From assembly GCA_011525805.1 (NCBI GenBank), contig WYBR01000105.1, positions 1 through 33,427 on the forward strand: 33,427 nt of DNA. The letters run 5' to 3'. The position numbers and the translations under genes were made by a program. Position 1 is the first letter of the stretch; each line of letters begins with the position of its first letter. The notes under the pieces were generated by a model. It was given only the letters and a program-made list of their open reading frames with translations, was not told where the DNA came from and did no database searches. Positions 2,194 through 29,282 of this stretch are shown here, piece after piece. This DNA comes from Vicinamibacteraceae bacterium. GTDB lineage: Bacteria > Planctomycetota > Phycisphaerae > Phycisphaerales > UBA5793.

Positions 2194-3171
2194 ATGAACC
2201 AGCAGCCGATCTCCCAGCCGAAATACTCCGGAAGCGGCGTCGAGCCGATCGAACTCGTCCCGCAGGACGGCGCGCACCACCCGGCGTTCCGCAAGCCGGA
2301 GAACGTCATCGGTCCGGCGGTGTCGGTCATCCTGCACGCGATCTTCCTGATCATCGCGGCGATTCTGGTGATCAATCCGCCGGTGCGCGGCGACGGGCGC
2401 GAGGTCGAGATCGAGTTCGCGACCCTCTCCGAAGAGGAACTCGAGGACCTGGACGAGACGCCGACCGATGCCCTCGCCTCGCCGCTGGATCCCTCGCTGG
2501 CCAAGGCGATCGAGTCTCCCGCCGACCTGCTCGAGGTGGACGTGGCGAGCGTGGCCGTCGACCTGGCCGATCCCGGCGCCATCGACACGCTCGGCGGCTC
2601 GGGCGACGAGTTCAGCCCCGGCGAAACGCTCGAGGGAGGCGGCTCGGGCACGAGTTTCTTCGGCGTCGAATCGCGCGGCACGCGCTTCGTCTACATCGTC
2701 GACGTTTCCGGTTCAATGTCGCAGTCCGATCGCATCGGGACGCTGCGGCGAAACCTGGTCGACTCGATCAACCGCCTGCCCTCGCACGCCAGTTTCCTCG
2801 TCATCGCCTACAACGACCAGGCGATCCCGATGCACAGCGCGTTCCGCTGGTCGAAGGCGGATGAGCCCTCGAAGTTCCGCGCCCGCGCCTGGGTGAACAA
2901 ACTCATCTCAAGCGGGGGGACCGAGCCGAGTTCCTCCTTCGAGCAGGCCTTCAAACTCAAGCCGCGGCCCGACGTCATCTACTTCATGACCGACGGCCAG
3001 CAGACGGAGGTGCTGCCCTCGCTCATCGGCGAACTCAACAGCAAGGGCCGCCGGACGAAGATCAACACGATCGTGTTCGGCGACCGGGGCGGCGAAGAAG
3101 TGATGCGCCGCATCGCCAACGAGTCGGGCGGACAGTACCGCTACGTGCCCGACGAGGGAGACGGCCCGTGA
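2194..3171 (+). CDS. Membrane-anchored VWA protein with TonB/TolA-like transmembrane helix
   Basis: The 325-residue protein has a short cytoplasmic N-terminus, one membrane helix at about 41-61, an acidic linker (70-115), a Gly/Ser-rich stretch (133-155) and a VWA domain (about 163-318). The VWA metal site is intact: D170, S172 and S174 in DVSGSMS, T243 and D267. The helix contains S44 and H48 in SVILH, the same Ser-x3-His spacing as E. coli TonB (SVCIH) and TolA (SAVLH), where these residues couple the helix to ExbB/TolQ. It is the first gene of an eight-gene operon that includes ExbB and two ExbD genes. AGGA lies a few bases before the ATG. I infer an envelope protein energised by the co-encoded motor, binding its partners through the VWA domain. 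The VWA and helix calls are firm; the function is not established. Confidence 0.9.
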   Translation: MNQQPISQPKYSGSGVEPIELVPQDGAHHPAFRKPENVIGPAVSVILHAIFLIIAAILVINPPVRGDGREVEIEFATLSEEELEDLDETPTDALASPLDPSLAKAIESPADLLEVDVASVAVDLADPGAIDTLGGSGDEFSPGETLEGGGSGTSFFGVESRGTRFVYIVDVSGSMSQSDRIGTLRRNLVDSINRLPSHASFLVIAYNDQAIPMHSAFRWSKADEPSKFRARAWVNKLISSGGTEPSSSFEQAFKLKPRPDVIYFMTDGQQTEVLPSLIGELNSKGRRTKINTIVFGDRGGEEVMRRIANESGGQYRYVPDEGDGP

Positions 3172-4328
3172 TCGGCGGGCGGAAGTCGGCCGGTCGATCT
3201 TCGCGCGCGCTCGCGGCCTGGCTGCTGGCGACGGCCGCGGCCCTGGCGGCGGAGGGGTTCGCCCTGGCCGACCGCCTCCACCGCCGCGGCGAGACGGCGC
3301 CCCTCGAAGGACGCACCCTCGACGTGACGGCCGACGGCGTGCTCTTCCGCGCCGCCCGCGGCTCGGAGTCCGGCGACTTGCTCGTCACCTGGGACCGGGC
3401 GCGCCACCTCGAAACCGATGAACAGCGCTTCGCCGAGGCCTTCAATACCCATCTCGATCTGAGCGAGCGCCTCTGGCGGGCGCGGTCGCGCGTCGAGCGC
3501 GGCGACTACGCCTCCGCCGAACCGATCTTCGACGAACTCTTCTCGGAGACGACGCACCGGACCGACGCGACGGCGCTGATCGTCGCCGAGGGCCTGCTCC
3601 GCTGCCGCGTGGCGCGCGAGGCGCGTGCGGCGGCGGTGCTGCCGTGGCTCGAGATGCATCGCCTGCTCGCGGCCGGCCTCAAGCCGACGGCGTACCTCTC
3701 GATGCGACCCGTCGTCGAGGCGCAGTCGGGGCTGTGCCCGCAGTTGCCGCCGATGTGGGGCAAATCCGCGGGGGTCGAGCAGATGCTCGCGGACCTCAAC
3801 CACTATGTGCCCGACGCGCCAGCGTCGGCGCGCCTCGCGGCGCTCTACGCGCGTGCCGCGCGCCTCTCGCTCGGCCTCGCCGTGAGTGACTCAGCGGACT
3901 TCTACCGCAGCGACGAGTCGTGGGACCGCGACGCGGGCGTCGTCGTCGTCACCGCGCTGGTCGCCGCGATCGAACGCGTCCGCCCCCTGCCGCTCGATGT
4001 CGAGAAGGTGATGGCGCGGCCGCTGCGCGAGCCGGGCCCGCTCACGCCCTGGGCGCTGTTCATGCGCGGCACGGTGCGCGTCGAGGAACGCGACCTCGAC
4101 CGGCGGCGCGAGGGGCTGGTCGATCTGCTGACGATCCCCGCGACGCACGGCGAGGAGCATCGCTACCTCGCGGGCTTCGCCGTCGAACGAGCGGCGTCGA
4201 TCCTGGATTCCATGGGACGCAGCGCCGCCGCCTCCTCCCTTCGCGCCGAGCGCCGTCGAACCGATCCGACCCACCCGCTCAACCACACGGCCGCGCCGCG
4301 CGCGGCCGCCTCGGAGACTCGACCATGA
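3168..4328 (+). CDS. Exported or membrane-anchored helical protein of unknown function
   Basis: I do not recognise a named family. The 386-residue protein has a basic N-terminus and a hydrophobic alanine-rich segment at about 14-32 that would act as a signal peptide or anchor. A region of probable beta strands follows (about 45-80) that resembles the small barrel seen in many planctomycete exported proteins. From residue 90 on it is largely helical and rich in Ala, Leu and Arg, which would suit TPR-like repeats. Start is GTG 3168, sharing GTGA with the stop of the VWA gene; its own stop overlaps the exbB start as ATGA. This tight coupling suggests it belongs to the same envelope complex. Confidence 0.85.
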   Translation: MIGGRKSAGRSSRALAAWLLATAAALAAEGFALADRLHRRGETAPLEGRTLDVTADGVLFRAARGSESGDLLVTWDRARHLETDEQRFAEAFNTHLDLSERLWRARSRVERGDYASAEPIFDELFSETTHRTDATALIVAEGLLRCRVAREARAAAVLPWLEMHRLLAAGLKPTAYLSMRPVVEAQSGLCPQLPPMWGKSAGVEQMLADLNHYVPDAPASARLAALYARAARLSLGLAVSDSADFYRSDESWDRDAGVVVVTALVAAIERVRPLPLDVEKVMARPLREPGPLTPWALFMRGTVRVEERDLDRRREGLVDLLTIPATHGEEHRYLAGFAVERAASILDSMGRSAAASSLRAERRRTDPTHPLNHTAAPRAAASETRP

Positions 4329-5146
4329 CCATCAGCGCCCCGTTCCAGCCCGCCTTCAACCCGATGCTCCTGCTCGCCCAGGACGAGGCGGATCGCGGCA
4401 TGACGCTGCTCGAGCAGATCAACAACGGCGGGGTAACGGGGTACGTGATCATCCTCCTCAGCCTCGTCGCGCTCACGCTGGCGATCATCAACCTCATCGC
4501 GATCCAGCCCAAGCGGCTCATTCCGCCGCACCTCGTCGCGGCGCTGGGTGGCGCGCTCTCCACGAAGGACGTGGTCGGCGCGTTGGAGATCTGCCGACGC
4601 CTCGAGAACGACAGTTTCCTCACTCGCGTCCTCGCGCAGGGCCTCAACCGCTACCAGCGCAGCGCCTTCGGCCCCTTCGAGTTCAAGGATGCCATCGAGG
4701 AAGCGGGATCGGAAGAGGTGGCGCGGCTCTATCGGCGCACCGACGCGCTCGGTCTGATCGGCTCGATCGCGCCGATGCTCGGGCTGCTGGGCACAGTCAT
4801 CGGCATGGTCGGGGCGTTCGGCACGATCTCGAACGTCGGCGCCCGGCCGGAACTGCTCGCCTCCGACATCTCCAAGGCGCTCATCACGACGCTCATGGGC
4901 CTGTGCGTGGCGATCCCGACCATGGCGGTCTTCACCTACCTGCGCAACCGCATCGATCACTACGCGGCCCTGGCGGCGCAGACGATCGAGGACATGACCG
5001 TGGCGCTCGAACCGACGGGCCAGCAGGCCAAGGCGCCGGCGGCCGGCGCCGGACGGGCCGCGGCTCCGGTCTCAATGACCCCGGCCGCGGGACCGGCCCG
5101 GCCGAGCGCTCCGCCGGCCCCGAGCGCGGCGAGGGCGGGATCGTGA
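4325..5146 (+). CDS. ExbB/TolQ/MotA-family proton channel subunit
   Basis: ExbB-family proteins form the pentameric inner-membrane stator through which protons drive TonB- or TolA-type partners. The 273-residue protein has three membrane helices at about 38-60, 142-166 and 184-206, with a cytoplasmic domain between the first two. The conserved segment after IAPMLGLLGTVIGMVGAF (about 148-165) is the family signature. The C-terminal 40 residues are a low-complexity Ala/Pro tail. ATG 4325 overlaps the upstream stop as ATGA; the frame is open upstream, but earlier starts would run through the preceding gene. It is followed directly by two ExbD genes, the usual arrangement. Confidence 0.95.
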   Translation: MTISAPFQPAFNPMLLLAQDEADRGMTLLEQINNGGVTGYVIILLSLVALTLAIINLIAIQPKRLIPPHLVAALGGALSTKDVVGALEICRRLENDSFLTRVLAQGLNRYQRSAFGPFEFKDAIEEAGSEEVARLYRRTDALGLIGSIAPMLGLLGTVIGMVGAFGTISNVGARPELLASDISKALITTLMGLCVAIPTMAVFTYLRNRIDHYAALAAQTIEDMTVALEPTGQQAKAPAAGAGRAAAPVSMTPAAGPARPSAPPAPSAARAGS

Positions 5147-5577
5147 GATTCGCCTCCCGACAGCGATCACATCTGCCCGACCTCGATCTGACGGCGATGA
5201 TCGACGTGATCTTCCTGCTCATCATCTTCTTCATGACAACGGCGCAGTTCGTCGAGCGCGCCCGGGCGGAACTCGACCTGCCCAAGGAGGAGGGCGAGAA
5301 GGAGGTGCGCAGCGCCGCCCCGCCGCTGGTCATCAACATCCTCCACGAGGGCGCCGAGCGCTACCTCGTCGGCGAGCGCCGCTTCGACGAGCGCGGCGTC
5401 AAGGACCTCATCGACCGCGAGATCGCCCGGCACAAGTCCGAGGGCGGAGGCATCGGCGAGTTTGAAGTCGTCATCCGGGCCGACCAGCGCGGCCCGAGCC
5501 GATTGATCAACGAACTCGGCGCGTTCCTCCGCGCCCGCGGCGTGTGGCGCTGGCGCCTGGCCACCGAACCGACATGA
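5143..5577 (+). CDS. ExbD/TolR-family protein, first copy of the operon
   Basis: ExbD/TolR subunits sit inside the ExbB pentamer; an aspartate in their single membrane helix carries the proton. The 144-residue protein has that residue as D21 in the sequence TAMIDVIFLL, a helix at about 17-36 and a periplasmic domain. Start is GTG 5143, sharing GTGA with the exbB stop; its stop overlaps the next start as ATGA. It differs clearly from the ExbD encoded next, so the channel may hold a heterodimer. Confidence 0.93.
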   Translation: MRFASRQRSHLPDLDLTAMIDVIFLLIIFFMTTAQFVERARAELDLPKEEGEKEVRSAAPPLVINILHEGAERYLVGERRFDERGVKDLIDREIARHKSEGGGIGEFEVVIRADQRGPSRLINELGAFLRARGVWRWRLATEPT

Positions 5578-5996
5578 AGTTTCGAGCGAAACAATCCGGC
5601 CAGGCCAATCGCGTGCAACTCAACCTCGCGAGCATGATCGACGTCGTCTTTCTGCTGCTGATCTTCTTCCTGTTCTCCTCGATCATCACGCCCTCGGAAT
5701 CGCAACTCACGCCCAACATCCAGACGCAGTCGGCCGACAGCGCCAGCCGGAGCACGGACTTCGCCCCGCAGGTGGTGTCGGTGGAGATGGTGGACGGCCG
5801 GCCGGCCTACCGCATCGGCTCGCGGATCATCACCGACCGCCGCGAACTGGAGACGCTGCTGCGCAGCCTGCCGCACGAACTCGGGGTCTTCGTGCGAGTC
5901 GACGACGCGGCCCCGGTGGGGTTTGCGGTCAGCGCGATCCAGGTCTGCCGCGACGCCGGCTTCGAGAAGGTGACGTATGTGCCGCAGTCGAAGTAA
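5574..5996 (+). CDS. ExbD/TolR-family protein, second copy of the operon
   Basis: The 140-residue protein has the family architecture: short cytoplasmic tail, one helix at about 19-38 with the proton-carrying aspartate D23 in SMIDVVFLLL, and a periplasmic domain with the VRVDDAAPVGF segment typical of ExbD. ATG 5574 overlaps the preceding stop as ATGA. The last 20 bases overlap the next gene in another frame. It would pair with the first ExbD and the ExbB of this operon. Confidence 0.94.
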   Translation: MKFRAKQSGQANRVQLNLASMIDVVFLLLIFFLFSSIITPSESQLTPNIQTQSADSASRSTDFAPQVVSVEMVDGRPAYRIGSRIITDRRELETLLRSLPHELGVFVRVDDAAPVGFAVSAIQVCRDAGFEKVTYVPQSK

Positions 5997-8628
5997 ACCC
6001 CCCTTCGCCCTCCGCGCGCGCGGCGCGGCGCTCGCCGCAGCCGCGGCGCTGGGCCTCCTCGCCGTTCCCGCCCCGGCGCGAGGCGACGACGACCCCGTCA
6101 TCGACTACCTCCAGCGCCACGGGCTGACCGACCTGGTCGTCGCGCGCCTCGAAGCGAGGTTTCGCGAAGCGCTCGGCGACGACCGCATCCCCCTCGCCGA
6201 GCGCCTCGCCGTGCTCTACGGCCAGATGCTCGACGAGACGGACGACGAGTCGCAGCGAGCCGTCTGGGAGAAGCGCAGCCGGGACATGCTCGAGCAGGTG
6301 CCCCGGGCCAACACCGAGGCGCTGCGCATGACGATCCACAAGGCGAGTTACCTCCGCGCCGAGCGCATCGCCGAGCGCCACCGCCTGCGCCGCGCCGACG
6401 AGGCCGAGCGCGTCGTGGCCGTGCGCCTCATGGGCGAGGTGTCGGCGGCGATGAGCGAAAACCACGCCCTGTTCCGGGATCGCATCCGCCGGCTCGAATC
6501 CGCCGATGCTGGCGGCGCGGCGCCCTCCGCCTCCATCGAGGACCAACTGCGCGAACTCGATCAACTCGCGATGCAGGCGGCGTACTACGACGGATGGGCC
6601 CGCTACTACCAGGCCTGGCTCACCGGCTCAACGGTCGGGCTGGACGAGGCGATGCGGAGTTTCGGCTGGCTCCTGCACTTCGCCGGCGCGATGCCCAATC
6701 CGGAAGAAGCGCCCGTCTCGCTGCTCGTTCACGAGCACCTCGCCCGCGCCGCCGTCGGCATCGCCCTTTGCCAGACCCAGGCCGGCCGCCCGCAGACGGG
6801 GCTGGCCTGGCTCGACCTCGTCGAGGAATCCAGCGCCGAGTCCCCGCCGATCCTCGCCATCCTGCCCGGCTACCGCCTCGTCATCCTCTTCGCCTCCCGC
6901 CAGTGGCCGGCCATCGCCGAACTGGTCGAGACGTGGAAGAGCGGCAAGCGCCTCAACGTTACTCTCGTGCGGCTCCTCGCCGTCCTCGCGCTCGAGCAGT
7001 CGCAGGTCACGGGCGACGCGCAGGCGCGTCAACTGGGCGAGACGGCGGTAAACCTCCTCGCCGAAATGGGCGAGTTGCGCCAGGTGATCGAGATCGCCGA
7101 TGTCTTCCGTCTCGACACGCTCGGCGGAGACAGTTTCATCCTCGCCTACGTTCCGGCGATCAAGGCCTACGAGCGGGCGCGGAGCGAACACGATTCGGAG
7201 GATCCGGCGACGCAGCCGGCGCACGTGGCGCTCTACAAGGAGGCGGAGGAGAAACTCGCCGCCACGGCGCAGCGCCGCGACGCGGCGCAGTGGCCCGACG
7301 CGGCCCGTCACGCGCGGCTGCTCATCGCCTGGTCGCGCTATTTCCAGAACCGGCTCGATTCCGCCGCGACGCTCTTCGAAGAGATCTCCACCCAAAGCAC
7401 GGGCGACGAGAGCGAGTCGGCGCTGTGGATGAGCATCGTCTGCCGCGAGCGCCTCGCCTCGGCGGGCGACTCGCCCGCGGCAGTGAAACTGCGCGCGGCG
7501 CTCGAATCCTTCCTCGAGCGCTTCCCGTCCAGCGCCCGCGCGGGGCGCGTGCGGCTGCGGCTCGTGACGGCCCAATCCGCCGATCCCTCGCTCCAGTCGG
7601 TCGAGGAACTGCTCGCGATCCCGCCCGGCAGCGACGTCTACGCCACGGCGCGCAACGAGGCTGAGCGCCGGCTGTTCCTGCTCTTCCGCGAAGCGCCCCT
7701 CGCGCAGCGCCTGCAATACGCTCAGCGCTACCTCGACGTCGCGATGCCGCTGCTTGAGGCGGATGAACGCCGCGCGTTCATCGGCGGCGGCGAGGCGGAG
7801 GCGCGGCAGGCGTACCTCCAGCGGGCGCGGCGCATGCTCGACGTGCTGCTGACGCGCGGCGTGGCGCGCGTCACCGAGGCCCGCCGCATCCTCGATCGTC
7901 TTGAAACGGCCCGGGCCGCCGGCCTCATCGACCTCGCCGCCGTCGCCGAGGAACTCGACTACCGGCGCTTCCAGGCGCAGATCCTCTCGGGCGGGTTCGA
8001 CGAAGCGGCTCGCTGGTGCGAGGAACTCTGGCGGACCGACCCCGACAGCGCCTTCGCCCAGTCCGCCAGCCGCGCCCTCTACGCCTACGCCCTCCAGGAC
8101 TGGCACACCTTTGAAAACGATCCGCGCCTCGAGCAGACGCTGCGGCGCGTCATCCTGCACGGCCGCCGGGCGCTGCGCGGCGCGGGCGACCCGCCCTCGA
8201 CCGACGATCCCGCCGACATCGCCGTCATGATCAACGTCGCGGACGCGGCTCTGGCGCTCGACCGCCTCGTGCCGGGAGGAGAGGCTCAGGCCCGCTCGCT
8301 CGCCGAGCAGTGGTTCGATCTGCTCATCGCCGCCCAGCCGCGGCACTTCCGCGTCCTGCGCGGCGCCGCCATCGTCGCCGAGGGGCGCGGCGAGACCGAC
8401 GACGCCGTGCAGCACTGGCGCACGGCGATGAACGGCTCGGCGGAAACATCGGTCGAGTGGTTCGAGGCGAAGTACAACTTCATCCGCCTCCTCGCCGGGC
8501 AGGATTCCCGGCGCGCCGGGGAGATTCTCGCACAGCACGTCGTGCTCTACCCGCAGTACGGACCTGAGCCGTGGGGCGAACGCCTCAAGGCCCTTCACGC
8601 GCAAGTCAAGTCGGGAGGCGGCCGATGA
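5977..8628 (+). CDS. Large exported helical-repeat (TPR-like) protein
   Basis: The 883-residue protein begins with a signal peptide: basic residues at 4-16, a hydrophobic core at about 17-33 and a likely cleavage after residue 36 before DDD. The rest is almost wholly helical, rich in Ala, Leu, Arg and Glu, in paired helices that suit TPR or similar solenoid repeats, although individual motifs are too degenerate to number. No catalytic motif was seen. Start ATG 5977 lies inside the end of the exbD gene and has AGAAGG six bases upstream. The stop overlaps the next start as ATGA. I infer a periplasmic scaffold that works with the ExbBD-VWA proteins; no activity can be assigned. Confidence 0.88.
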   Translation: MCRSRSKPPFALRARGAALAAAAALGLLAVPAPARGDDDPVIDYLQRHGLTDLVVARLEARFREALGDDRIPLAERLAVLYGQMLDETDDESQRAVWEKRSRDMLEQVPRANTEALRMTIHKASYLRAERIAERHRLRRADEAERVVAVRLMGEVSAAMSENHALFRDRIRRLESADAGGAAPSASIEDQLRELDQLAMQAAYYDGWARYYQAWLTGSTVGLDEAMRSFGWLLHFAGAMPNPEEAPVSLLVHEHLARAAVGIALCQTQAGRPQTGLAWLDLVEESSAESPPILAILPGYRLVILFASRQWPAIAELVETWKSGKRLNVTLVRLLAVLALEQSQVTGDAQARQLGETAVNLLAEMGELRQVIEIADVFRLDTLGGDSFILAYVPAIKAYERARSEHDSEDPATQPAHVALYKEAEEKLAATAQRRDAAQWPDAARHARLLIAWSRYFQNRLDSAATLFEEISTQSTGDESESALWMSIVCRERLASAGDSPAAVKLRAALESFLERFPSSARAGRVRLRLVTAQSADPSLQSVEELLAIPPGSDVYATARNEAERRLFLLFREAPLAQRLQYAQRYLDVAMPLLEADERRAFIGGGEAEARQAYLQRARRMLDVLLTRGVARVTEARRILDRLETARAAGLIDLAAVAEELDYRRFQAQILSGGFDEAARWCEELWRTDPDSAFAQSASRALYAYALQDWHTFENDPRLEQTLRRVILHGRRALRGAGDPPSTDDPADIAVMINVADAALALDRLVPGGEAQARSLAEQWFDLLIAAQPRHFRVLRGAAIVAEGRGETDDAVQHWRTAMNGSAETSVEWFEAKYNFIRLLAGQDSRRAGEILAQHVVLYPQYGPEPWGERLKALHAQVKSGGGR

Positions 8629-11492
8629 CGTCCGCCTCGCTGCGACTGGAGATTCTCGGCACCTCTTCGGAGCGCATCGGTCCGTTTGCGCTGCTGGGCC
8701 TGACGCCCGAGCGGTGCGACGCGGCGGAGGTGCGCGCGGCGCAGTCGCGCCTCTCGGCGCGTCTGGCGAACCATCCGCGCCGCCACGAACCCGAGGCCAT
8801 CCTGCTGGCGCGCGAGATTGACGCGGCCGCGGCGCTGCTGCTCGATCCGATCGCGCGGCGCGAACTGATCGCCGACTATCGCCGCACGGGCCAGGCGCGT
8901 ACAGAGCCGCCAGGCGATCGCGCGCCGATCGAGATAGCGTCGGACGCCATCGCGGCCGCGCCGGCCGCCCTGCACGCCAACGGGTCGGGTCCGTCGTCGT
9001 GCGCGGCGGGTTCCTATCCGCCGGGCTTCCTGCGCGACCTGCTCGCGGCTTGGGTGAGCGGGGGCGGGTGGAACGGCAAGGCGCGGCATCGGATAATCGC
9101 CGCCGGCGTGCAGCACGGCGTTTCCGGAGAGGATTTGCTCGATGCGATCCTGACGATGCCCGTCACGCTGGCGACGCCGCGGATCACGCCGCTCGTCGGC
9201 CCGCCGGCCGCGTCGATCGCCTCGGCTGAGTTCGCCGGCGCGCTGCCCATGCCCGCTTCGCTCGCGGCCGACCCGGCGCGCGAGGCGCACGAGGCGGCCA
9301 AGCGCAACCTCTTCGCCGCGCTGCTGGCGTTTCTCGCGTGCGCGGCGGTGGTGCTCCCCATCGCCGCCTGGGTGATCATCGAGATGAGCCGATCGGGCGC
9401 GCGGCCGATCGAAACTCCGATCGTGGAGGCGCCCGCTCCTCGCCCCGCCGTCGAGCCGGCCCCCACCTTGCCCTCCGTGCCGCGCCATTCCATCGCGGTG
9501 CCGATCAACCCCATGTCGCAGACCTTCGCCGGCCTGCTTGAGCGACTCGACCGCGACTCGCTTCTCGCTGAGCGGCTCGAGCCGGCGATCCTCGATCTCT
9601 TCATCCAGGCCGCCTCGCAGGGACGCCGCCAGTGGACGCAGTTCGACGCCGCCAACCGCGAGCGCCTGCGCAGCGTGATCGTCTCCGTCCTCTACCGCCT
9701 CGGCGATGACCCGGCCGCGGCCCAGTCGCTCGCCGAGGCGATCGATCCGGACGAGGGGCGCGCGATTTCAGTCGAGAGCATCCCCGGCCGGGCGTGGTCG
9801 CTGGGGATGCTGGCGGTGATTCTGCGCGAGCCGGACCTTCCCCCTGCGGCGCGTGCGGCGGTTGAGCGGCGGTGGAGGCGGCACGTGGCGGTGGGACAAC
9901 CCCCGCGCGCCGCCGAGTTTGACGACGCCGCACGCTTCGCCCTTCGCGAAATGATTACGCCGCTCGTCCAGTCCATTGCCGTGGAGGCGAAAGCGCCCGA
10001 GACGTGGATCGCCTGGCTGCAATGCGCCGCGTCGCTGGGTGGGGCGCCGGCGGTCGAGCCGTTGGCGCTTGAGGCGGCGGGGCAGGTGCTCGCCGACGGC
10101 CCCGACCTCGCCGCCTCCGAGCCGGCCGGGCGGGTGCTTGCCGCGCTCTTCGCCGCCGTGCGCTGGCGCTCCTCCGCCGCCGGCCGCAGCGCCATGCTCT
10201 CGTGGTGGGACGATCCGCGCCTCTCCGTCTCCGATCTCGCCGCCGTGTCCGCCTGGCTGGTGAGCAGCGGCGCCGTTCCGGGACTGGACGACTCCTTCAT
10301 CCTCCCCGTCAGCGCCGGCTCGCAGGAGCGCACCGAACTTCGCCAGCGGCTGGCCGAGGCGTGGAAGGCGGGCGCGAACGTAGAGGCCGGTTCGAGCCGA
10401 ACCGAAGTGGCCGACTGGGTCGCCCAGGCGCAGCGCCTGCTCGCCGAGCCGACCGCGGCCGGTTCCGAAGACCTGCTCGTGCAGACGATCCGCGCCGCCT
10501 ATCAGCAGACGGCGGCAGCGCTTGTGTGGACGGGGCGAGGCGAGGAGGCCGCGGACCTCGTGCGCGAAAGCGATTCGCACATCGCGGCGATGCGCCTCGC
10601 GGCGAACCAGCCCGCGCGCGGCGCGGCGGCGCCCGGCAATCCCTCGGCCGACGGCCGCTGGGCGGTGCGCGTCTTCCGCGCGCGGCACCTCAACGACCGC
10701 GCCGGCGTGGTCGAACTGCTCAACGCCCTGCCCGTCGAGTCGCCCAACGACGCCGGGCCGATCGACGCCGCCATCCTCGCCGACCTCGCGCTGGGACACT
10801 TCTGGCGCGACGTCCGCCTCCCCGCGCTCAACGTCGTCGCCGAGAGTTACCCGCAGGGGGCCACCGTTCTGCTCGCGCTCGCCGATCGCATGATCCCCGA
10901 CCGCGGCGACGGCGAACTCTCGCAGGCGATCGAGCGGATCACCGGCGACGATCTCCCCGAGCCGCGGAGCGAGCAGTGGTACGCCTCGGCGCGACTGTCG
11001 CTGCTGCGCCACGTGGCGAACCTCCGCGGACTTCTTTCGGCGGACGCGGCGATTGACGGGCTGGCGGCCCTGCTCGGCGAGGTGTATGCGTCGCGGCTGA
11101 TGCACTCGACGCCCGAACTGCTCGAACCGGCGCAAGCGGCCCGCCTCGCCGCCGAGCAGTGGATGGAAATCGGCCGGCCGATGCAGCCCGTCGCGCCTCT
11201 GCCCGCGCCGCTCGAGCAGATCGCGCACCGGGCCTCGCTCCGCGCGGCGCTCGCCGACGACCCCATCGGCCGATTCCACGCCTGGCAGATCGCCGGCCTC
11301 GAGTCGGCGTGCTACGTCGCCGCCGCCGAGCGTCCCGCGGCGCGTCAGGCGCTCGCGAAACTCCTCGAAGACACGACGCGCGATCTCGCCTTCGCGCGCG
11401 CCGCGACCGAACAACTGCTCATTGCCGAACGGGCCATGCTGCGCGTGTGGATCCTGCGCTTCGGCGCCGGCGCGGAAGGAGGACCGCTGTGA
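8625..11492 (+). CDS. Membrane protein with degenerate J-domain-like N-terminus
   Basis: The 955-residue protein starts with about 70 residues (18-88) that read like a J-domain: FALLGLTPE, a helix ending in NHPRR, then an EID-A-LLLDPIARREL stretch like the end of J-domains. The HPD tripeptide needed to stimulate Hsp70 is HPR here, so it would not be a normal DnaJ. A membrane helix follows at about 229-253, then a Pro-rich linker and a long helical region without recognised motifs. With the N-terminus inside, the large C-terminal part would be periplasmic. ATG 8625 overlaps the upstream stop as ATGA, and the stop shares GTGA with the next gene. The J-domain call is inference; the membrane helix is clear. 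Confidence 0.82.
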   Translation: MTSASLRLEILGTSSERIGPFALLGLTPERCDAAEVRAAQSRLSARLANHPRRHEPEAILLAREIDAAAALLLDPIARRELIADYRRTGQARTEPPGDRAPIEIASDAIAAAPAALHANGSGPSSCAAGSYPPGFLRDLLAAWVSGGGWNGKARHRIIAAGVQHGVSGEDLLDAILTMPVTLATPRITPLVGPPAASIASAEFAGALPMPASLAADPAREAHEAAKRNLFAALLAFLACAAVVLPIAAWVIIEMSRSGARPIETPIVEAPAPRPAVEPAPTLPSVPRHSIAVPINPMSQTFAGLLERLDRDSLLAERLEPAILDLFIQAASQGRRQWTQFDAANRERLRSVIVSVLYRLGDDPAAAQSLAEAIDPDEGRAISVESIPGRAWSLGMLAVILREPDLPPAARAAVERRWRRHVAVGQPPRAAEFDDAARFALREMITPLVQSIAVEAKAPETWIAWLQCAASLGGAPAVEPLALEAAGQVLADGPDLAASEPAGRVLAALFAAVRWRSSAAGRSAMLSWWDDPRLSVSDLAAVSAWLVSSGAVPGLDDSFILPVSAGSQERTELRQRLAEAWKAGANVEAGSSRTEVADWVAQAQRLLAEPTAAGSEDLLVQTIRAAYQQTAAALVWTGRGEEAADLVRESDSHIAAMRLAANQPARGAAAPGNPSADGRWAVRVFRARHLNDRAGVVELLNALPVESPNDAGPIDAAILADLALGHFWRDVRLPALNVVAESYPQGATVLLALADRMIPDRGDGELSQAIERITGDDLPEPRSEQWYASARLSLLRHVANLRGLLSADAAIDGLAALLGEVYASRLMHSTPELLEPAQAARLAAEQWMEIGRPMQPVAPLPAPLEQIAHRASLRAALADDPIGRFHAWQIAGLESACYVAAAERPAARQALAKLLEDTTRDLAFARAATEQLLIAERAMLRVWILRFGAGAEGGPL

Positions 11493-24051: not shown

Positions 24052-25275
24052 TCACTGGGCGATGACTGCCGCGCCCGCCACCGCGGAGGTCGGGAAAGTC
24101 GCCGGGCGCACGCCGAATCGCTGTTCGTACGCGGCGGCGAGGCGCTGCGAGGCGCTTTGAGCCGCTTCCGGCGACACGAGCGCGATGGCGCACCCGCCGA
24201 AGCCCGCCCCCGTCATCCGCGCGCCGAAGACTCCGCCGGCGCGGCCGATCGCCCGCGCCGCCTCGACGATCGCGTCGAGTTCCGGGCACGACACCCGGTA
24301 GTCGTCGCGCAGCGACTCGTGCGAGGCGTACATCAGCGAGCCGAAGCGGTCGAGGTCGCGCGCTCGCAGCGCATCGACGGCCTCGAGCACGCGTCGATTC
24401 TCGCTCACGACGTGGCGGACCGTGCGAAAGAGGTTCGGGCTCATGCACTCGGCGCACCGCCGAAGCGTCGCATCGTCCAAGTCGCGGATGTTCGACGCGC
24501 CGAAGGCCCCGGCGGTGATCTCGCGCACCGCCCCGATCGCGGTGAGGCACTGCTTGAGCACCTCGCCGTAGCGTCCCGCCGCGAGTTCATGCTCGACGCG
24601 CGTGTCGATCACGAGCACGACCGCCTCGTCGCGCGGCGGCAGGGGCACGTGCTCAAACGTCTCGTTGAGGCAGTCGAGGTGCAGGGCGCACCCGTGGCGG
24701 GCGTGGACGCAGATGAACTGGTCCATGATGCCGCAGGGCGTGCCGGCGAAGTCGCGCTCGGCCGCGCGGCACAGCGCCGCCTTCTCCCGCCCTTCGAGCG
24801 CCGCGCCCAGCGCCACCTCCAGCAACGTCGCAAACGAGACGGTCAGAGCGGCGCTGCTGCTCAGCCCCGAGCCGACGGGCACCGTGCTCTCGATGAGAAT
24901 GTCGAGGTTCGGCGAGATCAGGCCGCGCGACTGAAACTCGCGCGCAACCCCGAGCAGGTAGTTCACCCACGCGCTGCGCGTGCGGCGGCGGCTTCTCGTC
25001 AACGGCCGGCTCAGGTCGATCTCAACTTCGTCATCCAGCGCGCGGCTTCGGATGATGGAGCGCTCGCGGCGGGCCGGCGACGCCGCCGCGACGCACCATC
25101 GCTCGATCGCCATGGGCAGGACGTAGCCGCCCGTGTAGTCCGTGTGTTCGCCGATGAGGTTGAGCCTTCCCGGCGCCGCGGCGAGCCAGCGGGGCGCCGC
25201 GCCGAAGCGGGAGGCGAAGGCGCCGGCAGCCTCGTGTGCGACGTGTTCAACGGCCGCGCCCGGGTGACTTGACAT
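24052..25275 (-). CDS. galK: Galactokinase
   Basis: GalK phosphorylates galactose to galactose 1-phosphate with ATP, the first step of the Leloir pathway. The 407-residue protein, close to the usual 380-400, has the GHMP-kinase motifs: the galactokinase signature GRLNLIGEHTDYTGG (36-50), the ATP loop GSGLSSSAAL and the C-terminal MTGAGFGGCAIAL. ATG 25275 gives the family N-terminus; the frame is open further upstream but that part runs over the mutL promoter region. GGAG lies seven bases before the ATG. No other gal gene is adjacent. It is divergent from mutL with 98 bp between. Confidence 0.95.
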   Translation of the reverse strand: MSSHPGAAVEHVAHEAAGAFASRFGAAPRWLAAAPGRLNLIGEHTDYTGGYVLPMAIERWCVAAASPARRERSIIRSRALDDEVEIDLSRPLTRSRRRTRSAWVNYLLGVAREFQSRGLISPNLDILIESTVPVGSGLSSSAALTVSFATLLEVALGAALEGREKAALCRAAERDFAGTPCGIMDQFICVHARHGCALHLDCLNETFEHVPLPPRDEAVVLVIDTRVEHELAAGRYGEVLKQCLTAIGAVREITAGAFGASNIRDLDDATLRRCAECMSPNLFRTVRHVVSENRRVLEAVDALRARDLDRFGSLMYASHESLRDDYRVSCPELDAIVEAARAIGRAGGVFGARMTGAGFGGCAIALVSPEAAQSASQRLAAAYEQRFGVRPATFPTSAVAGAAVIAQ

Positions 25276-25281
25276 GGCGCA

Positions 25282-25310
25282 ACTCCAGCGCTCCCAACGC
25301 GATGAGTCAA
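25282..25310 (-). promoter_or_regulatory. Candidate galK promoter
   Basis: On the minus strand TTGACT (25305-25310) is followed after 17 bp by TGGAGT (25282-25287), six bases before the galK ATG. The -35 is good and the spacing ideal, but the -10 matches only three of six bases and overlaps the GGAG that could be a ribosome site, so the assignment is uncertain. Confidence 0.35.
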
Positions 25311-25359
25311 CCCGAAGATTCACCGCCACTGGTCGCGGGACGGCGCTGCGCCTCTCCCA

Positions 25360-25365
25360 TACAAT
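25360..25365 (+). promoter_or_regulatory. Candidate -10 box TACAAT of mutL, leaderless start
   Basis: TACAAT matches the -10 consensus in five of six bases and ends eight bases before the mutL ATG at 25374. No Shine-Dalgarno sequence lies between, in agreement with a leaderless transcript. Confidence 0.5.
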
Positions 25366-25373
25366 GCCCTCCA

Positions 25374-27209
25374 ATGGCCGAGATTCGCGCACTTGATCCC
25401 CTGCTGGTGAATCAGATCGCGGCCGGCGAGGTCGTCGAGCGGCCCGCCAGCGTCGTCAAGGAACTCGTCGAGAACGCCATCGACGCCGGGGCGATGCGCA
25501 TCCGCATCGAACTCGAACGCGGCGGGATCGAGCGCATCGAGATCACCGACGACGGCTGCGGCATCGAGCCCGAGCAACTTCTCCTCGCCATCGCCCCGCA
25601 CGCGACGAGCAAACTCCGCCGCGCTGAAGACCTCCACGCCATCGCCACGATGGGCTTTCGCGGCGAGGCGCTCGCGGCGATCACGTCGGTGAGCCGCTTT
25701 TCGATCGTCAGCCGCGCCGCCGGCCGGGACATCGGCGTCCGCCTCGACGGCGAGGGGGTGCGATTCGACCGGCCCGCGCCCTGCGGCGCGCCGCCCGGAA
25801 CGACGATCACCATCCGCAACCTCTTCTTCAACACCCCCGCCCGGCGGAAGTTTCTCCGTACGGTGCAGACGGAGTACGGCCACATCTCCGATCTCGTCGG
25901 GCGTCTCGCGATGAGCCATCCCGCGCTGGGCTTCATTCTCGTTCACGACGGCGCGACGATGCTCGACCTGCCGCCGCGCCAGTCGCCGCAGCAGCGCATC
26001 CTCGAGGTCCTCGGCCGCGAACTGGAGCGCGAACTGCTCGAAGTGAGCCAGGAGGACGCGGCCCTCGAACGCCCCATCTCGGTCTGGGGCTTCATCGGCA
26101 CTCCGGCCGTCGCGCGCGGCAGCGCCAAGCACCAGCACTTCTTCGTCAACGGCCGGTTCATCCGCGATCGCACCATCGCCCACGCGCTGAGGGAAGGCTA
26201 CCGCGGCCTGCTCGATCCCACGCGCCTGCCCTTGGCCGTCCTCTACATCGAGATGGACCCGGCGCAGGTCGATGTCAACGTCCATCCCACCAAGGCCGAA
26301 GTCCGCTTCCGCGAAACGCAGTCGATCCACGGGCTCGTGCTCACGGCGGTGCGGCAGCGGCTGCTGCTGGCGGACCTCACGCCCGCGGCGAACGTGCCGG
26401 GTCTGCGCGGCGACGTGCGCTGGAGCAATGGCGACGCGCCGCTCGTCACGACCCAGCCGACCTCCGCCCGGGCGTTCGTCGAGCACTTCCGTTCGCTCGA
26501 TCCCGTGCAGCGCGGCTTTGCCTACCAGGAACTCCGCGAAGCGCTCAAGGATGAGGACCTCGGCGAGGAGAACATCTTCGCCCAGACATCGGCGACGCCC
26601 GGCAACGGCGCGGCGACGGCCACGGCGGGCCAGGCCGTGCGCATCCTCCAGGTGCACCAGAGTTACCTCGTCGTCGAGGACGCCGAGGGCCTGAGCATCA
26701 TCGACCAGCACGCGCTGCACGAGCGCGTCATGTTCGAGGAACTCAAGGCGCGCGTGCTCGCGGGTCCGCTCGAGTCGCAGCGCCTTCTCATGCCCAGCGT
26801 CGTGGAGGTGCGGCCCGAGCAGATCGCGCTCCTCGAAGCGCTGCGAGCCCTGCTCGAGCGCATCGGCGTCGAGGCCGAACCGATGGGGCCGCGCTCGATC
26901 GCCGTCCACGCATTCCCCAGTTTTCTGTTTGAGAGGCGGGTTGATCCCGTCGTGTTTCTGACGGAACTCTTCGACCGCGCGGCCGAGGAGGGCTTCTCGC
27001 CCGAAGACGAGGCGGCCCTGCACGAGGTGCTCGACATGATGAGTTGCAAGGCGGCGGTGAAGGCCGGCGACCGCCTCTCGGAAGAAGAACTCAACGAATT
27101 GCTGAGGCGCCGCGAGGAGATCGAGCGCCGCGGCAGTTGCCCGCACGGGCGACCCACGACCATCCGCCTGACGCTGCGGGACCTCGAGAGACAGTTCGGG
27201 AGACGTTGA
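25374..27209 (+). CDS. mutL: DNA mismatch repair protein MutL
   Basis: MutL links mismatch recognition by MutS to strand incision. The 611-residue protein has the GHKL ATPase domain at its N-terminus: LVENAIDAG (31-39), DDGCGI, TMGFRGEAL. The C-terminal domain carries the endonuclease motif DQHA-x2-E-x4-E starting at D444, with SCKAAVKAGD and the CPHGRPT motif at about 589-595. This marks a nicking MutL, as found in bacteria without MutH. I chose ATG 25374, which gives the family start MAEIRALDPLLVNQIAAGEV; the frame is open upstream but overlaps the divergent galK. mutS is not in the window. A heptamer repeat follows the stop. Confidence 0.96.
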   Translation: MAEIRALDPLLVNQIAAGEVVERPASVVKELVENAIDAGAMRIRIELERGGIERIEITDDGCGIEPEQLLLAIAPHATSKLRRAEDLHAIATMGFRGEALAAITSVSRFSIVSRAAGRDIGVRLDGEGVRFDRPAPCGAPPGTTITIRNLFFNTPARRKFLRTVQTEYGHISDLVGRLAMSHPALGFILVHDGATMLDLPPRQSPQQRILEVLGRELERELLEVSQEDAALERPISVWGFIGTPAVARGSAKHQHFFVNGRFIRDRTIAHALREGYRGLLDPTRLPLAVLYIEMDPAQVDVNVHPTKAEVRFRETQSIHGLVLTAVRQRLLLADLTPAANVPGLRGDVRWSNGDAPLVTTQPTSARAFVEHFRSLDPVQRGFAYQELREALKDEDLGEENIFAQTSATPGNGAATATAGQAVRILQVHQSYLVVEDAEGLSIIDQHALHERVMFEELKARVLAGPLESQRLLMPSVVEVRPEQIALLEALRALLERIGVEAEPMGPRSIAVHAFPSFLFERRVDPVVFLTELFDRAAEEGFSPEDEAALHEVLDMMSCKAAVKAGDRLSEEELNELLRRREEIERRGSCPHGRPTTIRLTLRDLERQFGRR

Positions 27210-27333: not shown

Positions 27334-28224
27334 ATGAAACACATGCGATCACGGTCGATTCGCCTCCGTCCTTCTTCGCGCCTTCTGTGCCTCCTTGCGG
27401 CCATGCCTTCGCTCTTCTTCACCGCCAGCGCCCTCGCGCAAGATCCTCAGCCCGCCGCCGCCGAGGCCGAGAGCACTTCCTTCGCCGCCGCGTTCTTCAT
27501 CTCGCGCGGCTCGATCTTCGGCACGGCGATCATCTGGTTCCTGCTCGCGCTGTCCGTCTTCAGCGTCGGACTGATGGGCTACATGTGGCTCATCAACCGC
27601 CGCACCCACATCCTGCCCGAAGGTCTGGCCGAACGCGCCCGCCAACTCGTCGTCGCCCAGCAGTACCGCGAACTGCTCGGCCTGCTCTCGGCCGACGTGA
27701 GTTACTTCGGCCGCGTCCTCTCCGCGGCGCTGCACGAGTCCTCGCACGGCTTCGGCTCGATGCTCCGCGCCCTCGAGCAGGCGGCCGACGAGTACACCAC
27801 CCGCCGCCTGCGGCAGATCGAGATCCTCAACGTAATCGGCAACGTGGCGCCGATGATCGGCCTGTTCGGCACGGTCTACGGCATGATTCTCGCCTTCCAG
27901 AGCATCGTCGCCGCGGGCGGGCGGCCAAGCCCCGTCGATCTCGCCGCGGGCATCGGCACCGCCCTCGTCACCACCTTCTGGGGACTCATCATCGCCATCC
28001 CCTCGGTCGCCGTCTACGCGCTCATTCGCAACAACGTCGATGCGCTCACGAGCGAGGCGATGCTCGAAGCGCAGGACCTGGTGAACCGCTTCCGCCCGAG
28101 CCAGGCCGGCGCGCCGTCCACAGCGACGCCGGCGGCCGCGGCCGCGCCGGCGCCGCGCCTCGGTCGCCCCGCATCGCCGCCGAGTGCGGCCTCCTCTCCC
28201 GGACCCAATCGCCCGAGCGCCTGA
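27334..28224 (+). CDS. ExbB/TolQ-family proton channel subunit with signal peptide
   Basis: The 296-residue protein is the channel subunit of a second ExbB-ExbD cassette. It begins with a likely signal peptide (basic 5-16, hydrophobic 17-30, cleavage near ALA-Q at 35), then membrane helices at about 62-86, 165-188 and 208-232. NVAPMIGLFGTVYGMILAFQ (169-188) is the family signature. The C-terminal 40 residues are an Ala/Pro-rich tail. Start ATG 27334 has AGGAG eight bases upstream. Unlike the first cassette, no gene for a TonB/TolA-like partner is adjacent, so it may serve a partner coded elsewhere. Confidence 0.94.
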   Translation: MKHMRSRSIRLRPSSRLLCLLAAMPSLFFTASALAQDPQPAAAEAESTSFAAAFFISRGSIFGTAIIWFLLALSVFSVGLMGYMWLINRRTHILPEGLAERARQLVVAQQYRELLGLLSADVSYFGRVLSAALHESSHGFGSMLRALEQAADEYTTRRLRQIEILNVIGNVAPMIGLFGTVYGMILAFQSIVAAGGRPSPVDLAAGIGTALVTTFWGLIIAIPSVAVYALIRNNVDALTSEAMLEAQDLVNRFRPSQAGAPSTATPAAAAAPAPRLGRPASPPSAASSPGPNRPSA

Positions 28225-28236
28225 GATCGATCCGCC

Positions 28237-28734
28237 ATGAGCCGCGCACGCGCCATCCAGCCGGGAGCCGCGAGGGTTCGCATGAACCTCACGCCGATGA
28301 TCGACATGACGTTTCTGCTGATCGTCTTTTTCATTCTGACCAGCCAGATCAGCAACGTCGAGATGGCCGAGGAGATCGAACTGCCCGAGCCGAAGCACTC
28401 CGTCGCGGCCGAGCCGGATGAAGAACACCGCGTGGTGATCAACCTGATTCCCGACCTCCTCGACAAGCGGCGCGTCGCGTCGATGCGGCTGGGCTTCCGC
28501 ACGTTCAATGCCGATGCCGCGGGCCGCGCTGCGCTGCGGGCGGAACTGCTCGCGGCCGTGCAGCGCGACGCCGAGGTGAAGATCGACATCCGCGCCGACC
28601 GGCAGGCGTCCTACAGCGAGGTCTACCCGATTCTCAACGCCGCCTCGGCGAGCGGGGCGCGACGCGTCGATCTCGTCGTCGCCGCGTCACTGCCGGGTGG
28701 TGGTGCGCGATTGAACGAGGAGGGCGGGCCGTGA
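28237..28734 (+). CDS. ExbD/TolR-family protein, first copy of second cassette
   Basis: The 165-residue protein has a short basic N-terminus, one membrane helix (about 19-38) with the proton-carrying aspartate D23 in PMIDMTFLLIV, and a periplasmic ExbD domain (about 45-155) with IRADRQASYSEVYPIL. It starts 12 bp after exbB and its stop shares GTGA with the next gene. The final residues form a Gly-rich tail. Confidence 0.93.
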   Translation: MSRARAIQPGAARVRMNLTPMIDMTFLLIVFFILTSQISNVEMAEEIELPEPKHSVAAEPDEEHRVVINLIPDLLDKRRVASMRLGFRTFNADAAGRAALRAELLAAVQRDAEVKIDIRADRQASYSEVYPILNAASASGARRVDLVVAASLPGGGARLNEEGGP

Positions 28735-29282
28735 CGCTCCTCGCCCGCGCACGCCGCACTCCCGATTCCGCCGCACCGGAGAACGGCGGCGCTTATCACC
28801 GCCCCCTCTCGCGCCGCCACCGCAGCGAGTCGGACCTGCGTCTCAATCTCGTCTCGATGATCGACGTCGTCTTTCTGCTCTTCATGTACTTCCTGCTCAC
28901 CGCCAACTTCACGCTCGGCGAGGAGGTCTACCTCATCGACGTGCCCCAGACGCGCGCCGCCGGCTTCGACGATCCATTCGAGTTGCCGGAGCGGCCACTG
29001 ACGATCCGCATCGCGACGATCGGCCCGGGCGCGGCCGACTGCTCAATCCGCATCGACCTTCCGGGCCTGGCGCCGACGCCCACATTCGAGGACCTCTTCC
29101 GCCGCCTGGAAGATCACCGCGTGCGGCCGGGCAATCCGACGGGCCTGTTCATGCCCGACAATCCGATTCACATCGTCCCGACGGCCGGCACCCGCTGGGA
29201 ACACACGATCGAGGCCCTCAACGCCTGCCTGCGGGCGCAGTACACGAGCGTGCGCCTGATCGAGCCCGCCGCAGGCGGTTAG
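28731..29282 (+). CDS. ExbD/TolR-family protein, second copy of second cassette
   Basis: The 183-residue protein has an unusually long N-terminal tail of about 38 residues before the membrane helix (41-60), in which D45 of SMIDVVFLLF is the proton carrier. A diverged periplasmic domain follows. Start is GTG 28731 in a GTGA overlap with the preceding gene; a start later in the tail cannot be excluded. It pairs with the other ExbD in the same cassette. Confidence 0.9.
   Translation: MTLLARARRTPDSAAPENGGAYHRPLSRRHRSESDLRLNLVSMIDVVFLLFMYFLLTANFTLGEEVYLIDVPQTRAAGFDDPFELPERPLTIRIATIGPGAADCSIRIDLPGLAPTPTFEDLFRRLEDHRVRPGNPTGLFMPDNPIHIVPTAGTRWEHTIEALNACLRAQYTSVRLIEPAAGG

Follow-up and report, generated by a model that had tools for sequence, protein, structure and literature searches.

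A class of vWA force transducers, the Tichowtungia family, was reported in 2025 from sequence and structural models only, with Planctomycetes included (Williams-Jones et al., PMC12204202). That report describes AlphaFold 3 models of homologous vWA transducers in which the membrane helix lies at the TonB site via its His, and ascribes a full SHLS motif to 'many', not all, members. TonB itself binds ExbD via the D-box, a short strand with hydrophobic residues at alternate positions (Loll et al. 2024, PMC10907165); the TonB D-box peptide QPISVTMVTPAD covers residues 43-54 and is centred at His20+27. In the solved TolA-TolQ complex, TolA S18 and H22 touch TolQ I29 and S28, respectively (PMC12583513). 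Here we analyse an operon encoding a von Willebrand factor type A (VWA) protein together with ExbB/TolQ-type and ExbD/TolR-type motor subunits, in a 33,427-nucleotide stretch of an assembly placed in the Phycisphaerales (GCA_011525805.1, named Vicinamibacteraceae bacterium). This stretch, hereafter the window, is the entire contig WYBR01000105.1 (C90) of a 4.54 Mb genome that is 97% complete. The initial annotation of the window knew of no described system of this architecture, a statement overtaken by the 2025 report: by architecture and gene neighbours, the present VWA protein fits the vWA force transducer class as described there. We found no experimental work on motor-coupled VWA proteins in the open-licence literature, and a 2026 review citing Williams-Jones et al. 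leaves vWA undiscussed.

Our analysis indicates that the operon probably encodes a Ton/Tol-like force machine, in which the VWA protein is the transducer docked on the ExbB/ExbD motor. The VWA protein, placed in the inner membrane, has a cytoplasmic N-terminus, a sole membrane helix (residues 39-60 in the AlphaFold2 monomer model, predicted local distance difference test score (pLDDT) ~93), a disordered linker of ~90 residues (61-150, modelled at low confidence) and a periplasmic VWA domain (152-318, pLDDT ~95). Pfam finds only VWA-type families in this 325-aa protein and no TonB/TolA C-terminal domain. As the initial annotation had recognised, the lone N-terminal helix contains the sequence SVILH (2323-2337), with S44 and H48 in the Ser-x3-His arrangement, and all five metal-site residues of the VWA domain are present.

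To this pair conservation analysis lends considerable weight. We searched for the VWA protein among 61 genomes from its order and obtained a match in 50; reading the neighbourhoods yielded 50 VWA proteins adjoining ExbB/ExbD. H48 is kept in 49 of these 50 homologues and S44 in 47, the exceptions being one Asn and three Ala. Column entropy is 0.14 bits for H48 and 0.33 bits for S44, as against ~1.5-3.4 bits in the other helix columns, which are hydrophobic yet variable. H48 is also invariant in a 40-sequence alignment (A1). A second, independent collection of 80 named loci, drawn from Phycisphaerales and other Planctomycetota assemblies and overlapping the first in part (several records represent the same genomes), gave the same picture: His is kept in 78/78 proteins with an intact N-terminus, and the sole Ser replacements are Thr in L140 and Ala in L198. 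The closest named relative found is 71% identical in the VWA protein. Two homologues, L064 and L070, have Asn instead of His (SLAAN and SLAVN). Twelve VWA homologues located away from such operons, including one truncated at a contig end, have no S-x3-H helix; presence of the pair in linked versus unlinked VWA proteins differs with a Fisher p-value of 2e-10, a test that ignores relatedness. Since the pair is conserved in linked homologues and absent from the unlinked controls, a chance S-x3-H is ruled out. Poor conservation of S44 and H48, which the initial annotation had named as evidence that would count against coupling, is clearly not what we observe.

A second feature of TonB-like transducers lies in the linker. 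The segment VEIEFATL has its centre, F75, at H48+27, matching the spacing of the TonB D-box. Using a simple home-made score, we found the best strand-like segment centred at H+25 to H+29 in 61% of 117 homologues, compared with 13% when linkers were shuffled, and the approximate consensus of the family reads [VI]-[EDQ]-[FLVY]-A-x-[LM], with E-L frequently behind it. Residues 71-78 form no strand in the AlphaFold2 monomer, as would be expected if the strand forms only with ExbD. Judged by sequence pattern and spacing, the protein has the candidate motor-box or D-box strand that marks vWA force transducers.

The motor encoded alongside is intact, since its key residues are invariant: ExbB T157 and T189 of the proton path, positioned by phmmer alignment to TolQ, and P150 in the third transmembrane helix are each conserved in 93/93 sequences, and the membrane Asp residues in 96/96 (ExbD1 D21) and 87/87 (ExbD2 D23). 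In the first transmembrane helix (TM1) of ExbB, S46 is near-invariant (92/93) and may correspond to the TolQ Ser28 that contacts TolA His22, with TM1 matched by eye and without a significant alignment. Among NCBIfam models, ExbB is nearest to TolQ and then ExbB, and both ExbDs are nearest to TolR, all far under the equivalog cut-offs.

Conservation of S44 and H48, the D-box-like strand and the invariant proton-path residues together make it very likely, on sequence grounds, that the VWA protein couples to the ExbB/ExbD motor. By this model, ExbB would form a pentameric proton channel with ExbD1 and ExbD2 in its pore as a hetero- or homodimer. By analogy with TonB and TolA, the VWA membrane helix would dock on the exterior of ExbB through S44 and H48, the ExbD pair would capture the strand at residues 71-78 with its periplasmic domains, and the motor would pull the linker and hence the VWA domain. 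Stretched, the linker could extend over some tens of nm (~0.35 nm per residue, our own estimate). Through its metal site the VWA domain would bind a ligand, most probably a partner in the envelope, for which the first candidates are two secreted products of the same operon, P2 and an 883-aa protein (Table 1). The metal site is well preserved across the 50 ExbB-linked homologues: D170, S172 and S174 in 50/50, T243 as Thr or Ser in 50/50 and D267 in 47/50. The initial annotation had posited a proton motor driving a VWA adhesion domain in place of a TonB or TolA C-terminal domain; the coupling is borne out by the conservation, the strand and the motor residues, whereas 'adhesion' is unsupported.

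The same contacts could serve another end. The VWA helix might dock as a regulator or assembly anchor, with partner binding gating proton flow without sustained force on the VWA domain; according to a review (PMC12905483), the Ser/His contacts are believed to act on the channel through a network of Ser and Pro residues within ExbB/TolQ, and Pro150 does not vary here. We consider this unlikely, as helix pair and strand are both kept in most linked proteins, as in force transducers. It is extremely improbable that the VWA protein is instead a pore partner rotating in the ExbB pentamer, as in the TPH-vWA class, whose VWA proteins adjoin tolQ-like genes (Williams-Jones et al., PMC12204202): the same operon has two ExbDs with a pore Asp, and helix 39-60 of the VWA protein has S-x3-H but no Asp.

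Several observations weigh against the force-transducer interpretation. The window protein has A55 (H+7) and V59 (H+11) where the SHLS motif has its Leu and its second Ser; across the 117 homologues, H+7 is Ala in 58 and Leu in 39, and H+11 is Ser in only 6. The TM1 Trp of TolQ and ExbB has no equivalent four residues past S46 in the by-eye match. Finally, 10 of 105 non-redundant loci (L053, L065, L066, L164, L166, L173, L186, L188, L197 and L203) have the VWA and accessory genes with no exbB/exbD between them, which parsimony on the VWA tree resolves into six changes. Regular separation of the VWA gene from exbB/exbD had been proposed as a sign against coupling, and these losses show it in part; Ser and His are retained in all ten. 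This retention suggests that a motor encoded elsewhere serves the exbB/exbD-less operons, while recent loss would look identical. For TonB, TolQR is able to substitute partly for ExbBD (PMC10907165). By eye, the D-box-like strand looks degenerate in four of the ten (L053, L066, L166 and L203), and loss of the strand with Ser/His kept is a point in favour of the regulator or anchor.

Absence of exbB/exbD from some operons would also suit a Bat-type membrane VWA protein, functionally separate from the adjoining motor, with Ser/His kept for some other reason, and a fold search matches the VWA domain to structures of Cav alpha-2/delta, BatB and LapA vWA. This explanation is very unlikely: the Ser/His pair goes with the operon and is missing in VWA homologues without such linkage, and Bat and MoxR genes are absent from the seven-gene operon.

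A TonB C-terminal domain near an ExbB on contig C43 rules out the VWA protein as the sole transducer of its genome. Two genomes whose operon has lost exbB/exbD (G023 and G031) carry other exbB-exbD-exbD sets with no obvious S-x3-H transducer adjoining; a third (G012) has a detached motor set with an ExbB closest to those of the operon type. These observations are suggestive only. The window itself holds a second ExbB-ExbD-ExbD set (27334-29279, + strand) adjoining mutL (25236-27206), and the closest relatives of the ExbB in this set are ExbBs associated with a different VWA type (L084, L090, L096 and L119). Elsewhere in the same genome, L004:3127-4191 (contig C50) encodes a second VWA protein whose helix has S-x3-H (SVAAH); the next gene encodes a secreted protein, and there is no ExbB. 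Because its nearest relatives are those of L090, L084 and L096, this VWA protein may be a partner of the second motor that is encoded apart from it.

Table 1 Genes of the VWA operon and sites within the VWA protein (window positions).
Feature	Position	Strand	Basis or remark
VWA protein, 325 aa	2194..3171	+	PF13768 VWA_3, 2.5e-10
Membrane helix, residues 39-60	2308..2373	+	S44 = 2323-2325, H48 = 2335-2337
D-box-like strand VEIEFATL, residues 71-78	2404..2427	+	candidate ExbD-binding segment
VWA domain, metal-ion site D170/S172/S174/T243/D267	2647..3147	+	conservation and model
P2, secreted, 386 aa	3168..4328	+	small beta barrel (35-82) then TPR-like helical hairpins, in model
ExbB/TolQ-type motor subunit	4325..5146	+	PF01618, 4.5e-30
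ExbD1/TolR-type subunit, membrane Asp D21	5143..5577	+	PF02472, 1.7e-17
ExbD2/TolR-type subunit, membrane Asp D23	5574..5996	+	PF02472, 2.4e-12
Secreted TPR-like protein, 883 aa	5977..8628	+	weak TPR_6 match; N-terminal hydrophobic segment
973-aa protein, final operon gene	8571..11492	+	one predicted membrane segment near residue 243 (hydropathy)

The operon is a tightly packed set of seven genes, VWA, P2, ExbB, ExbD1, ExbD2, 883-aa and 973-aa, in which each gene overlaps the next; the VWA stop and P2 start share GTGA, the P2 stop overlaps the ExbB start, and ExbB, ExbD1 and ExbD2 are translationally coupled. The initial annotation had recognised the VWA, ExbB and two ExbD genes as one operon, and their identities (one PF01618 and two PF02472 matches) and coordinates hold; its extent was too short, with P2 between VWA and ExbB and the two downstream genes missed. 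The position of P2 between VWA and ExbB is conserved across loci. In its high-confidence model (mean pLDDT 89.8), a signal peptide precedes a small beta barrel, and TPR-like hairpins follow; the window protein matches no Pfam family, one homologue has a weak TPR match, and no PDB fold matches at E<=0.001. No Pfam family was found in the 973-aa protein or in 10 of its homologues.

The operon is near-universal in four Phycisphaerales families (f1-f4), and nearly all complete loci of these families keep the seven-gene order. Across the phylum, a profile of the 883-aa protein matched in 8 of 246 sampled genomes, three of them outside the order; two of these three carry the whole operon and belong to another planctomycete class (L217 and L218). 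VWA proteins with the S-x3-H helix occur more widely across Planctomycetota. In four loci (L087, L088, L089 and L099) a tandem VWA pair, each with its own coupling helix, lies upstream of ExbB-ExbD, and in L181 the VWA operon is preceded, on its own strand, by an additional ExbB-ExbD-ExbD set. Phycisphaerales operon genes also appear in assemblies titled Cyanobacteria bacterium (L151) and Chitinophaga pinensis (L189), which are probably mislabelled or misbinned. A defence system such as Zorya was rejected: none of the seven proteins matches a PADLOC model, and the operon is near-universal and syntenic. We tentatively propose that these seven genes form an old envelope machine peculiar to planctomycetes: the motor would drive the VWA domain to act on secreted helical-repeat partners, in an envelope task carried out by neither Ton nor Tol, and a motor encoded elsewhere could serve the transducer where exbB/exbD have been lost.

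Taken together, this analysis adds to the known class figures for conservation, the spacing of the D-box-like strand, the residues of the motor, the operon in full and repeated loss of exbB/exbD. A class known from prediction only thereby gains strong evolutionary evidence, with coupling residues, the putative ExbD-capture strand and the proton path conserved in one operon, which also offers, as candidate partners, three envelope proteins that have yet to be characterised. Natural variants, namely exbB/exbD loss with Ser/His kept, split systems and tandem VWA proteins, make the coupling rules testable. As planctomycete envelope mechanics are poorly understood, a near-universal Phycisphaerales motor offers a concrete target.

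Compared with TonB-ExbB-ExbD, the locus shares the Ser-x3-His helix, a D-box-like strand at equal spacing and an ExbB/ExbD motor, but has two ExbD paralogues and no TonB-dependent receptor in the operon. With TolA-TolQ-TolR it has in common the Ser-x3-His helix, a TolQ/TolR-like motor (by best NCBIfam matches) and secreted TPR-like operon proteins, whereas TolB, Pal and a TolA C-terminal domain are absent from the operon. The TPH-vWA/TolQ pairs likewise combine a membrane vWA protein with a TolQ-like pentamer; as described in PMC12204202, those pairs lack ExbD and carry the pore Asp in the vWA helix. The vWA force transducers of the same report differ in having the VWA gene downstream of the motor rather than first in the operon, in the SHLS motif, of which the present proteins do not conserve Leu and the second Ser, and in the mention of a single TPR gene, where the present operon encodes P2, the 883-aa and the 973-aa proteins. 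They share with the present system the Ser/His helix, a disordered linker (~100 residues in their case), the motor-box strand and the C-terminal vWA domain, together with one tolQ-like gene, two different tolR-like genes and an adjoining TPR gene.
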